From the NCBI GenBank assembly GCA_944321735.1, contig CALUMK010000020.1, forward strand, positions 1-46,960: a stretch of 46,960 nt of DNA, in the 5' to 3' direction. Shown piece by piece: positions 10,339-23,937 of this stretch. The position numbers and the translations under genes are program-made. How positions within the stretch are numbered: the first letter of the stretch is position 1; every line of letters starts with the position of its first letter. The notes beneath the pieces were generated by a model. That model was given only the letters and a program-made list of their open reading frames with translations, was not told the origin of the DNA and did not search any database. This DNA comes from an uncultured Bacteroidales bacterium. GTDB lineage: Bacteria > Bacteroidota > Bacteroidia > Bacteroidales > P3.

Positions 10339-10851
10339 TTAGCATGCCTTCCTGGCAGCTTCCAAAGCTTTCTCGAAATCAGGCAGATTGGTCACTTCCT
10401 TCACATATTCCACATACACCACCTTGCCCTCCTTGTCAACAACCACGATTCCACGGCTCAGCAGACGCAATTCCTTGATAACAAAACCGTATTTATGGCC
10501 AAAATCCAAATCCCTGTGATCCGAGCAAGTATGCACTTTGTCAATGCCGGCTGCTCCGCAGAAACGGCCCAAGGCAAAAGGAAGGTCGCAGGAAACCGTC
10601 AAAATTTCCACATCGGGCAGACCGGCCGCTTCCTTATTGAACTGGCGGGTCTGGGTATCGCAAACCGGAGTATCGATAGAAGGCACTACCGAGATGATCC
10701 GTACTTTCCCATTGTAATCGCTCAGCTTCACCGGACTCAAATCGGGTGCCAGCACCGTGAAATCCTGGGCCATATCCCCTGCCTTGACCATGTTTCCTTC
10801 CAGTGTGAGCGGATTGCCGCCCATCGTAATGATTCCTTTGTGTTCTTGCAT
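10339..10851 (-). CDS. tpx: Thiol peroxidase
   Basis: A 170-residue atypical 2-Cys peroxiredoxin of the Tpx family, reducing hydroperoxides with thioredoxin as electron donor. The peroxidatic Cys64 sits in PSIDTPVCDTQTRQF, and the resolving Cys98 in GRFCGAAGI, matching the Cys61/Cys95 pair of E. coli Tpx. The length is standard. It is monocistronic, with a terminator downstream and a promoter candidate ~100 bases upstream. Confidence 0.96.
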   Translation of the reverse strand: MQEHKGIITMGGNPLTLEGNMVKAGDMAQDFTVLAPDLSPVKLSDYNGKVRIISVVPSIDTPVCDTQTRQFNKEAAGLPDVEILTVSCDLPFALGRFCGAAGIDKVHTCSDHRDLDFGHKYGFVIKELRLLSRGIVVVDKEGKVVYVEYVKEVTNLPDFEKALEAARKAC

Positions 10852-11162: not shown

Positions 11163-11170
11163 TACCTTTG
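11163..11170 (+). promoter_or_regulatory. Promoter -7 element for the pyrBI leader
   Basis: TACCTTTG matches TAnnTTTG. A start near 11,176 would give a ~198-base leader before pyrB, and would place the leader-ORF ATG (11,180) only a few bases into the transcript. An AT-rich block (11,065-11,130) lies upstream. Confidence 0.55.
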
Positions 11171-11179
11171 CACTCCGAT

Positions 11180-11377
11180 ATGGGGACAGTAAAACGCTAT
11201 CGGATTCTGGAAGGAACATCTTCTTCCCTCTTGCTTGAAAGAGGCTTCGTTCCCGTTTTTTTTGAACTTTTTTACTTTTGGCGGTTCCGTAAGGAATCGC
11301 TTTTTTTTTGCCGAAAGCGTTCTTCCCAAAGAAAACTCATTCCGAATCTCATTAAACCCAATATTTCTGCCTTATGA
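11180..11377 (+). CDS. Putative pyrBI leader peptide (PyrL-like)
   Basis: A 65-codon ORF fills the pyrB leader. It begins [12 protein letters not shown], has a Phe-rich middle ([15 protein letters not shown], then SLFFCRKR) encoded by the U-rich tracts, and ends ...NISAL. Its TGA overlaps the pyrB ATG as ATGA. Both terminator-like hairpins lie inside it. In E. coli a 44-codon pyrL plays this role: at low UTP, RNA polymerase pauses in U-runs, the ribosome catches up and blocks the attenuator. The layout here is the same, but sequence homology to PyrL is not claimed. It could instead be a chance frame; the overlap with pyrB and full spanning of the hairpins argue against that. Confidence 0.5.
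11209..11263 (+). terminator. First attenuator-like hairpin in the pyrBI leader
   Basis: An interrupted stem pairs GGAAC (11,213-217) with GTTCC (249-253), enclosing a CCTCTT/AAGAGG hairpin (227-232/239-244). Eight T follow at 11,256-263. The stem is weaker than the second hairpin; the T-run may serve mainly as a UTP-sensitive pause site. Confidence 0.5.
11281..11309 (+). terminator. Second attenuator (intrinsic terminator) in the pyrBI leader
   Basis: GCGGTTCC (281-288) pairs fully with GGAATCGC (293-300), allowing one G-U, around a GTAA loop, and is followed by nine T (301-309). It ends 64 bases before the pyrB ATG. U-rich sequence (TTTTTTTT, TTTTTT, CTTTTGG) lies directly upstream, as in enteric pyrBI. 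Confidence 0.75.
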
Positions 11378-12285
11378 AGAATAAAAACCTGATCTCGATT
11401 ACCGACTTCAGCAAGGAAGAGCAACTGCACTTGCTGGATGTGGCGGAAGAATTCGCAAAGAATCCCCGCCAGCGGATTCTGGCCGACAAAATCGTTGCCA
11501 CCTTGTTCTTTGAACCCTCCACCAGAACCCGTCTCAGTTTCGAGAGCGCAGCCAACCAGCTCGGAGCTCGGATCATCGGCTTCTCGGATGCATCGAACAG
11601 CAGCGTGACCAAGGGGGAAACCTTGAAAGACACCATTTTGATGGTAAGCAATTACGCCGACCTGATTGTCATGCGCCATCCCCGGGAAGGCAGTGCCCGC
11701 TACGCTTCCGAAGTGGCCAAAGTACCTGTCATCAACGCAGGAGACGGAGCCAACCAGCATCCGACCCAATGCCTCCTCGACCTTTATTCTATCCGCAAGA
11801 CACAAGGCCGTTTGGACAACCTGAACATCGCCTTCGTCGGCGACCTCAAATACGGACGCACCGTACACTCGCTGACACAGGCTCTCTGCAATTTCAACTG
11901 CACCTTCCATTTCGTATCCCCTGTCGAGCTCAAAATGCCCAGCTACGTGAAACAAACGGTCAAAGACAACAAACTGGAATACCACCAATACACCGAACTC
12001 TCGGATGTCATTCCTTTTGCGGACATCATCTATATGACACGGGTTCAGCGGGAACGTTTTGCAGACCCCATGGAATACGAAAGAGTGAAAAACAGCTGCA
12101 TCCTGAACAAAGCCATGCTTGCAGGCTGCAAGGAAAACATGAAAATCCTGCACCCGCTGCCTCGCGTCAATGAAATTGCGACCGATGTGGACAACACGCC
12201 GTATGCATATTACTTCCAACAAGCGCACAACGGTGTATTTGTCCGTCAAGCCCTAATGTCGCTGATACTGGGTGCCAAGGAATAA
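11374..12285 (+). CDS. pyrB: Aspartate carbamoyltransferase, catalytic subunit
   Basis: A 303-residue ATCase catalytic chain, carrying out the first committed step of pyrimidine synthesis (carbamoyl phosphate + aspartate). The carbamoyl-phosphate loop [12 protein letters not shown] is at 46-57, and [11 protein letters not shown] and [14 protein letters not shown] mark the rest of the active site. The start overlaps the leader-ORF stop. The gene for the regulatory chain follows 57 bases later, so the enzyme should be the allosteric c6r6 type. Control by attenuation in the leader is inferred. Confidence 0.97.
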
Positions 12286-12342: not shown

Positions 12343-12798
12343 ATGGTAAAAAAAGAATTAATCGTTTCCGCCATCGAAAACGGAACCGTCATCGACCATA
12401 TCGTATCCAGCGAGGTTTTCCGGGTAATGCGCCTGCTGAACCTGGAGAAATGCGAAGAAACCGTCTATATGGGATCCAATCTGGAAAGCCAGAAATTAGG
12501 GAAAAAAGGCATCATCAAAGTAGCCAACCGCTTCTTCGCCCCTGAAGAAATCAATAAGATCGCTTTGGTAAGCCCGAATGCCACGATTATCGAAATCCGG
12601 AATTTCGAAGTAACCAAGAAAACGAAAGTGGAACTTCCTCAAACCGTGAAGGGCATTGTAAAATGCATGAATCCGAACTGCATCACCAACCACGAAGTCA
12701 TTGAAACCAACTTTACGGTAGTGCAAAACCCAGACGTGAAATTGAAATGCCACTTTTGCGAGAAATTCACCACCAAAGAGAATATGGAATTCTTATAG
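12343..12798 (+). CDS. pyrI: Aspartate carbamoyltransferase, regulatory subunit
   Basis: A 151-residue PyrI that binds CTP/ATP and joins catalytic trimers. The N-terminal allosteric domain (LIVSAIENGTVIDHI) is followed by a zinc domain with the four expected cysteines: Cys108, Cys113, Cys136 and Cys139 (C-x4-C...C-x2-C). The length equals that of enteric PyrI. It is cotranscribed with pyrB and ends at a strong convergent hairpin. Confidence 0.97.
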   Translation: MVKKELIVSAIENGTVIDHIVSSEVFRVMRLLNLEKCEETVYMGSNLESQKLGKKGIIKVANRFFAPEEINKIALVSPNATIIEIRNFEVTKKTKVELPQTVKGIVKCMNPNCITNHEVIETNFTVVQNPDVKLKCHFCEKFTTKENMEFL

Positions 12799-21978: not shown

Positions 21979-22917
21979 ATGAAGACAGCTGTAGTCGCCT
22001 TAGGAGGAAACGCCTTGCTCCGCAGCGGGCAAAAAGGGACTTTCTCCGAACAGATGCAAAACGTGACCACGACCTGCCAAGCTTTGGTAAAACTGATCCA
22101 ACAAGGATATTCCATCTGCATCGGTCATGGGAACGGCCCTCAGGTAGGCAACGTAATGTTGCAGCATGAAGCCGGGAAGAAGGAATTCGGACTGCCTGCC
22201 ATGCCGATGGATTTCTGCGTTGCCGAGACCCAAGGTTCGATCGGATACCTGATCGAGCTCTGCCTGTACAACGAATTGCACAAAGCCGGATTGACCAAGG
22301 ATGTGATTTGCCTCTTGACCCAAGTGAGGGTGGACAAGAACGACCCGGCATTCCAAAAACCGACAAAGCCGGTAGGACCTTACTACACTAAGGAAGAAGC
22401 TGACAAATACGCGGCTGAAACCGGAGCCATCTTCAAGGAAGACCCCAAGGGCAACGGCTGGCGGAAAGTAGTCCCCTCTCCCACCCCGATTGAGATAAAC
22501 CATGTCGGAACGATTCTCCGCGCTTTGGTCAACGACAATATCGTCATCACGGTAGGGGGCGGCGGAATCCCGGTAGTAGAGGAGGAAGGAATGTATCATG
22601 GCGTGGAGGCCGTTATCGACAAGGACTTGGCTTCCGCCTTGCTGGCATCGCGCATCGGGGCTCACTCGTTCTTCATCCTCACCGACGTGCCCAATGTCTG
22701 CATCCGTTTCCGCAAGCCGGACGAAAAGAAGCTGGAGCAAATCACGGTAGCAGAAGCTAAAAAATACCTGGCCGACGGGGAATTCGCCGAAGGCTCGATG
22801 GCTCCCAAAATCCGGGCAGCGCTCTTCTTCCTGGAACATGGCGGCCACGAATGCATCATCACCGAAGCCGGGATGCTGGGACAAGACCATGCCGGTACCC
22901 GAATTGTAAAGGAATAG
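21979..22917 (+). CDS. arcC: Carbamate kinase
   Basis: A 312-residue amino-acid-kinase-fold enzyme. It begins VVALGGNALL and carries GHGNGPQVGNV, VGGGGIPVV and VIDKDLASALLA, all typical of carbamate kinase. It makes ATP from carbamoyl phosphate and ADP when arginine or citrulline is broken down. It lies 21 bases upstream of an ornithine carbamoyltransferase gene, with which it must be cotranscribed. No arginine deiminase gene is nearby, so the source of citrulline is encoded elsewhere or differs. Confidence 0.95.
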   Translation: MKTAVVALGGNALLRSGQKGTFSEQMQNVTTTCQALVKLIQQGYSICIGHGNGPQVGNVMLQHEAGKKEFGLPAMPMDFCVAETQGSIGYLIELCLYNELHKAGLTKDVICLLTQVRVDKNDPAFQKPTKPVGPYYTKEEADKYAAETGAIFKEDPKGNGWRKVVPSPTPIEINHVGTILRALVNDNIVITVGGGGIPVVEEEGMYHGVEAVIDKDLASALLASRIGAHSFFILTDVPNVCIRFRKPDEKKLEQITVAEAKKYLADGEFAEGSMAPKIRAALFFLEHGGHECIITEAGMLGQDHAGTRIVKE

Positions 22918-22938: not shown

Positions 22939-23937
22939 ATGGCTTTTAACTTGAAAAACCGGAGTTTCTTGAAACTCCTTGATTTCACCCCGAAAGAAAT
23001 CCAGTACATGTTGGACTTGGCTAAACAGCTGAAAGCTGCCAAATACGCCGGCACCGAACAGCCCATGCTGAAAGGCAAGAACATCGTGCTGTTGTTCGAA
23101 AAAGACTCGACCCGTACCCGTTGCTCCTTTGAAACCGCTGCACACGACCAAGGCGCGCATGTAACCTACTTGGGACCTTCCGGTTCGCAGATGGGCAAAA
23201 AAGAATCCATGAAGGACACCGCCCGCGTATTGGGCCGTATCTACGATGGTATCGAATACCGCGGTTTTGACCAAAGCATCGTGGAAAGCCTAGCTGAATA
23301 TGCCGGCGTACCTGTATGGAACGGTCTGACCAACGAATTCCACCCGACCCAGATTCTGGCCGACTTCCTTACCATGATGGAACACAGCGACAAACCGCTG
23401 CACCAGATGAGCTTTGCATACCTCGGAGATGCCCGTTACAATATGGGGAACTCCTTGATGGTAGGTGCTGCCAAGATGGGCATGGACTTCCGCGCCGTGG
23501 CTCCGAAAGAATACTGGCCCAATGAAAAGCTGGTGGAAGAATGCCGCAAGATCGCTGCCGAAACCGGTGCCAAGATTACCTTGACGGAAAATGTGGAAGA
23601 AGGCGTGAAAGGTGTTGACTTCCTCTATACCGACGTATGGGTATCGATGGGCGAACCGATGGAAGCCTGGGGCGAACGTATCAAGGCCTTGAAGCCCTAC
23701 CAGGTGAACATGGACGTTATCAAGAAGACCGGCAACCCGCACGTGAAATTCCTGCACTGCCTGCCGGCTTTCCATAACTTGGAAACGACCATCGGCCGTG
23801 AAGTATATGAAAAATACGGCATGAACGGCTTGGAAGTAACCGAAGACGTATTCGAATCCAAGCACAGCATCGTATTCGATGAAGCCGAAAACCGTCTGCA
23901 TACGATCAAGGCGGTGATGGTTGCCACCTTGGCCTAG
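22939..23937 (+). CDS. arcB: Ornithine carbamoyltransferase (probably catabolic)
   Basis: A 332-residue OTCase. The carbamoyl-phosphate loop [12 protein letters not shown] is at 54-65, with [12 protein letters not shown] and the ornithine-side HCLPAFHN downstream. The [15 protein letters not shown] start and the 332-residue length match ArcB/ArgF rather than the N-acetyl- or N-succinylornithine enzymes of Bacteroides. Pairing with carbamate kinase suggests citrulline phosphorolysis for ATP; an anabolic role cannot be excluded. A strong terminator follows. Confidence 0.93.

Follow-up and report, generated by a model that had tools for sequence, protein, structure and literature searches.

Control of pyrimidine genes by attenuation is textbook knowledge in enteric bacteria. 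The pyrE attenuator of Escherichia coli uses rph as its leader ORF and senses UTP by coupling, and pyr operons are also attenuated through the PyrR-binding pyr leader (RF00515). As described for E. coli pyrBI in PMC10135430 and PMC5021804, polymerase moves fast when UTP is high and the terminator forms; when UTP is low, polymerase pauses at U residues, the coupled ribosome prevents the hairpin from forming, and pyrBI is made. We found no report of a pyrBI attenuator in Bacteroidota among the open papers searched. Judging from the sequences compared below, the pyrBI leader of an uncultured Bacteroidales bacterium is probably a ribosome-dependent, UTP-sensing transcription attenuator that works like the one of E. 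coli pyrBI.

The window (the whole stretch of DNA analyzed, 46,960 nt) encodes pyrB, the 303-aa catalytic chain of aspartate carbamoyltransferase (11374-12285, + strand; Pfam OTCace_N and OTCace; TIGR00670 at 382.2 bits, cut-off 236.95), and pyrI, its 151-aa regulatory chain (12343-12798, + strand; Pfam PyrI and PyrI_C; TIGR00240 at 162.5 bits, cut-off 148.55). The upstream neighbor of pyrB is tpx (10339-10851), which lies in the opposite orientation on the - strand, and the 522-bp gap between the two genes holds the whole leader arrangement. At the start of this leader, 5' of pyrB-pyrI, is a putative -7 promoter element, TACCTTTG (11163-11170, + strand), that fits the consensus TAnnTTTG given for the Bacteroidota -7 element in PMC9723704. 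Five or six of the six consensus bases are present in all 10 leaders from the same genus. Transcription is expected to start a few nucleotides 3' of the box, which would leave a very short 5' UTR before the leader ATG. The leader ORF of 65 codons (11180-11377, + strand) has no Pfam match and crosses a terminator-like hairpin, and its stop codon TGA (11375-11377) overlaps the pyrB ATG at 11374 as ATGA. The hairpin, GCGGTTCC-GTAA-GGAATCGC (11281-11300, + strand), has eight pairs, one of them G-U, and is flanked by an extra pair, G11280-T11301, and a run of nine T (11301-11309); it is predicted to be an intrinsic terminator between the promoter and pyrB. Before it is a U-rich tract (11256-11279, + strand; 18 T in 24 nt, with runs of 8, 6, and 4), the proposed UTP-dependent pause zone.

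Direct reading of the DNA bears out the first-pass annotation on the -7 element, the 65-codon ORF, the U-rich runs, and the ATGA overlap with pyrB. That annotation had also described two hairpins, each followed by 8-9 T. The description holds for the hairpin at 11281-11300, with its T9, and fails for a 6-bp hairpin farther upstream (CCTCTT-GCTTGA-AAGAGG, 11227-11244, + strand), which is separated by 11 nt from a T8 run and is not terminator-like. Only one terminator-like hairpin is present, and the second attenuator must be withdrawn. The upstream hairpin could be a pause hairpin; sought in leaders of the window organism's genus (g1) and of genus g9, it was not consistently found and is not clearly conserved.

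Within the window alone, the arrangement is only weakly above chance. The site at 11281-11309 tops a list of 11 terminator-like sites between 9000 and 15000, where shuffles give 7.2 sites, and the fold of the leader has a z-score of -1.53. In the whole-leader fold, the terminator hairpin sits within a larger pairing that uses RNA 3' of the U run. When the leader is shuffled, the ORF reaches the hairpin in ~9% of trials and some open frame extends beyond the terminator in 53%; an ORF in this leader could be there by chance. The window sequence by itself being unconvincing, we compared the pyrB upstream regions of relatives.

A phylum-wide PyrB search (E 1e-60) covered 79 other genomes, none carrying the label of the same order, and gave a match in only one of them; the survey was therefore confined to Bacteroidales. 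It covers 185 pyrB upstream stretches, 105 from a genome set and 80 from named records. We refer to the family of the window organism as f1 and to the window leader as L001. Three pairs of rows are identical (L006/L052, L033/L064, and L172/L053), showing that the named set overlaps f1; L052, the duplicate of L006, is one of the 29 rows scored as outside the f1 set, and f1 may include a few other named records. The upstream stretches of L013, L169, and L006/L052 measure less than 320 nt. For genus g3, 32 leaders were examined and many further matches were left out; also left out of the survey were G040, which has pyrB, and G047, a partial match. A hairpin and T run ≤160 nt from pyrB was required in a first step (91 of 185 stretches) and a TAnnTTTG-like box upstream of the hairpin in a second (76 of 91), with ORFs ignored at this stage. 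Among several boxes, we took the one whose distance from the hairpin was closest to 100 nt, blind to the ORF; promoters were picked by consensus. The hairpin of L183 was placed by hand, the automatic one having spanned too much. The ORF score accepts any ATG ≤45 nt from the box with a frame reaching ≤15 nt from the hairpin, and expected values come from leaders shuffled with dinucleotides kept.

Across relatives, the ORF reaches the hairpin at rates strongly above chance. It does so in 46 of the 47 f1 leaders that have a hairpin and a -7 box, versus 8.3 expected from shuffles, and in 25 of 29 leaders outside the f1 set, versus 5.8 expected (24 of 28 without L052). If only the first ATG is considered, the counts are 40 of 47 (6.1 expected) and 22 of 29 (4.7 expected), and with one leader per f1 genus the count is 8 of 9 (1.75 expected; P ~4e-6, from shuffle rates). 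The comparison of ORF and hairpin in related leaders that the first-pass annotation had proposed as a check came out in its favor: all 10 same-genus pyrB leaders have the hairpin, the -7 box, and a hairpin-reaching ORF, and so do 36 of the other 37 f1 leaders with hairpin and box. The predicted ORF would start near the transcript start and reach or cross the terminator. Pair types in the stem vary with pairing kept; the hairpins were preselected for folding, so this is not counted as proof of covariation. Beyond the hairpin and U tract, leader sequence is widely variable among relatives.

Hairpins with T runs within 160 nt of pyrB occur in 49 of the 87 f1 leaders examined, and the full layout recurs in eight f1 genera: g1 (10 of 10 leaders), g2 (5 of 5), g3 (3 of 32), g4 (3 of 3), g5 (10 of 11), g6 (4 of 4), g9 (3 of 3), and g11 (8 of 9). 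It was not found among the leaders examined from g7 (0 of 5), g8 (0 of 1), and g12 (0 of 4). In four negatives (L016 and L017 of g3; L028 and L029 of g12), an open frame seems to extend almost to pyrB, which may have joined another operon. Two g3 leaders, L182 and L184, count as negatives with a hairpin and T run beyond the 160-nt limit, ~200-230 nt before pyrB, and may have a longer leader. Beyond the f1 set, records with the layout are titled Prolixibacteraceae (L094, L099, and L107; L094 and L107 are from one assembly), Gaoshiqia (L111), and Dysgonomonas (L117 and L120), among others. The pyrB upstream stretches of Bacteroides fragilis (L100), Bacteroides gallinarum (L127), and four Prevotella-titled records (L091, L092, L115, and L121) yielded no hairpin. 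In other families (L039, L030, L027, and L020), pyrB is closely preceded by a hairpin and T run that themselves follow an upstream gene; the space left for a promoter is small, and pyrB may be reached there by read-through of the hairpin.

The hairpin might merely end other transcription or set a constant low output, with no regulation involved. Consistent with this, a -7-like box is missing from the range searched in 15 of the 91 hairpin leaders, and some of these box-less hairpins directly adjoin the end of the preceding gene and may do no more than terminate it. In the window, however, tpx is on the opposite strand and the -7 box is upstream of the hairpin, which would therefore lie inside the pyrBI transcript. 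An unregulated terminator also leaves the conserved ORF and U tract unexplained, and we regard it as quite improbable. What we observed directly is the leader anatomy, the fact that it recurs in eight f1 genera, and its absence before two control genes. With upstream stretches measured from the match start rather than from a checked start codon, the pyrE leaders of 30 relatives include one hairpin, no -7 box, and no case of the arrangement (0 of 30), and the tpx leaders of 16 relatives include four hairpins, one with a -7-like box, and no hairpin-reaching ORF (0 of 16).

PyrR controls pyr operons in other phyla, and attenuation here might likewise be controlled by a PyrR-like protein or by a metabolite (including through an undescribed riboswitch), with the ORF incidental. 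Potentially in support, weak matches to the PyrR model fall below the cut-off in 32 of 37 genomes; these are partial and low-scoring and look like other phosphoribosyltransferases, and PyrR is above cut-off in 0 of 37. At the gathering threshold, Rfam detected only tRNAs in the window and 20 leader loci, with no leader family and no RF00515. Thus, neither the pyrR gene nor the PyrR-binding RNA of a PyrR-dependent attenuator was found in these genomes and loci. The variability of the leader beyond hairpin and U tract, and an ORF reach far above chance, also argue against control by protein or metabolite, which we consider very improbable.

The point at which the leader ORF stops bears on how a ribosome-dependent attenuator could work. 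Measured with the longest-reaching ATG, 27 of the 33 leaders from g2, g3, g4, g5, g6, and g11 have their stop codon between 12 nt upstream of the hairpin and 7 nt within it, and the remaining 6 have it 11-86 nt beyond the hairpin's first base. In 13 of 13 leaders from g1 and g9, the ORF crosses the hairpin and stops 69-110 nt beyond its first base. The first-ATG frame is also open beyond the terminator in all 13 leaders of g1 and g9. A further candidate feature, conserved openness of all three frames in these two genera, was dropped, with P ~0.05 or less in 3 of 13 leaders only. As reported in PMC4824070 for E. coli, ribosomes repress a terminator that lies a few base pairs 3' of a stop codon, maximal terminator function is reached only at >27 nt, and a ribosome is not likely to catch up with the polymerase in the first 100 bp if there is no pausing. 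Here, the hairpin starts 62-151 nt after the -7 box (82-122 nt in most f1 leaders) and the U tract is just before it. This spacing, together with the U tract, is the anatomy needed by a pause-dependent, ribosome-dependent switch.

The T fraction in f1 rises from 0.25-0.28 at 50-100 nt before the hairpin to 0.59 at 10 to 3 nt before it. It is 0.42 in the last 45 nt versus 0.25 earlier, and the last 45 nt are the T-richer part in 43 of 47 f1 leaders (exceptions are L023, L024, L147, and L151). Over the 17 nt compared, T makes up 0.54 of the leaders (which are non-independent) versus 0.30 of 55 hairpin-plus-T sites elsewhere in the same loci, controls found by a loose script of which many are probably not real terminators, one is listed twice, and one falls within the L022 leader region. 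Outside the f1 set there is no clear rise (0.36 versus 0.29 for 24 named-record rows). Of two cultured relatives with an ORF and hairpin, Dysgonomonas sp. Marseille-P4361 (L120) has the U-rich tract and Gaoshiqia sediminis (L111) shows no U enrichment. The predicted leader transcript has a U-rich zone between its start and the terminator both in the window and in most f1 leaders.

A leader ORF with many Phe, Ile, and Tyr codons and a terminator-like hairpin after it might also suggest attenuation of the trp/his type, in which ribosome stalling at scarce codons leads to an alternative hairpin; PMC2864571 lists a Bacteroid-trp motif for the phylum. However, the U runs are kept and the peptide is not. 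L001 and L003, whose PyrB proteins are 99% identical, have almost the same U runs, read in different frames (VFFELFYF versus IFLNFFTF); a frame-shifting indel is compensated by a second indel, and the frame is restored by the end. The last residues of the peptide vary by genus (IIFFID, DVFF, FDFLEI, NFSFYN, and CISFFI), and we found no conserved run of codons for an amino acid of the operon's own. To our knowledge, no pathway links pyrB to Phe, Tyr, or Ile synthesis. Further, with the stop codon at the hairpin, a ribosome finishing the peptide would block the hairpin, the opposite of trp logic. Amino-acid attenuation is thus extremely improbable, and the retention of open frame, U runs, and hairpin without the peptide points to nucleotide rather than amino-acid sensing. 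Just as hard to credit is a leader ORF that mainly feeds ribosomes to pyrB by translational coupling at the ATGA overlap, a role that the first-pass annotation had added to attenuation: the overlap occurs in the window, L003, L013, L132, L044, L061, L071, and L094 (in L013 and L132 at an ATG six bases before the aligned start) but in only 2 of the 10 genus leaders, 27 of the 33 leaders from the six other f1 genera have an ORF that ends at the hairpin and far short of pyrB, and the overlap is partly automatic, since ATGA results whenever a correctly framed ORF crosses the start of pyrB and codon 2 begins with A.

Carbamoyl-phosphate synthetase seems to be missing from f1. At E 1e-40, carB (TIGR01369) was detected in 0 of 16 f1 genomes and carA (TIGR01368) in 0 of 9 genomes from g1, some of these genomes being incomplete. 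Carbamate kinase (arcC) is above cut-off in 13 of the same 16. In the window, arcC (21982-22911) adjoins a gene for ornithine carbamoyltransferase (22951-23817), and pyrimidines may draw on carbamoyl phosphate from either the carbamate kinase or the carbamoyltransferase.

For the UTP-sensing attenuator, we infer promoter use, termination, leader translation, pausing, and the response to UTP. Transcription would start just 5' of the leader ATG, and a ribosome would load at once. With ample UTP, polymerase would cross the U tract fast and outrun the ribosome, and the hairpin and U run at 11280-11309 would end the transcript before pyrB. With low UTP, polymerase would stall in the U tract and the ribosome would catch up; by translating as far as the hairpin or across it, the ribosome would block pairing of the 5' arm, and polymerase would continue into pyrBI. 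Counting against the attenuator are the absence of the layout from parts of the family, many g3 leaders included, the lack of clear U enrichment outside f1, and the lack of conservation of ATGA in the genus.

Bacteroidota make little use of Shine-Dalgarno initiation. If the proposed attenuator operates, ribosome and RNA polymerase would be closely coupled in Bacteroidota, and in most of f1 the signal would be read by a ribosome terminating right at the foot of the hairpin. We lean toward the view that Bacteroidales reached UTP-sensing, ribosome-dependent pyrBI attenuation independently of enterics. A family-wide Bacteroidota equivalent would allow transcription-translation coupling in the phylum to be tested simply in a natural system, and the leader would serve as a built-in UTP reporter for such bacteria. 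It would also be a clear case of a U tract, open frame, and hairpin being kept while the peptide sequence drifts.

Like the leader described here, the Bacteroid-trp motif (RF01692), as presented in PMC2864571, is a proposed regulatory leader from this phylum, and so are the leader-peptide candidates of Flavobacterium psychrophilum given in PMC9723704; both concern amino-acid operons. The pyrBI leader matches no Rfam leader model at the gathering threshold. The RF00515 system needs PyrR, for which the 37 genomes have no candidate above cut-off, and RF00515 itself has no match here. Unlike in E. coli, pyrE in the 30 relatives has no upstream hairpin accompanied by a -7 box. In comparison with E. 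coli pyrL, the leader has a Bacteroidota-type -7 box, an ATG expected a few nucleotides from the transcript start, and, in most leaders of six f1 genera, an ORF that stops at the hairpin. The U tract abuts the hairpin here, whereas in E. coli it is 20-30 nt before the hairpin; the same script finds 7 T in 10 nt at -30 to -20 from the hairpin in pyrL of E. coli K-12. That script also has the K-12 pyrL ORF crossing the terminator hairpin and stopping 3 nt before pyrB, and gives the same order of elements, in agreement with the pyrBI-like layout that the first-pass annotation had proposed. The leader peptides here and pyrL share Phe runs, as judged by eye. As in E. coli, the leader lies 5' of pyrB-pyrI, the ORF runs through a hairpin with a U-rich stretch before it and a T run after it, and the ORF ends at or next to pyrB.
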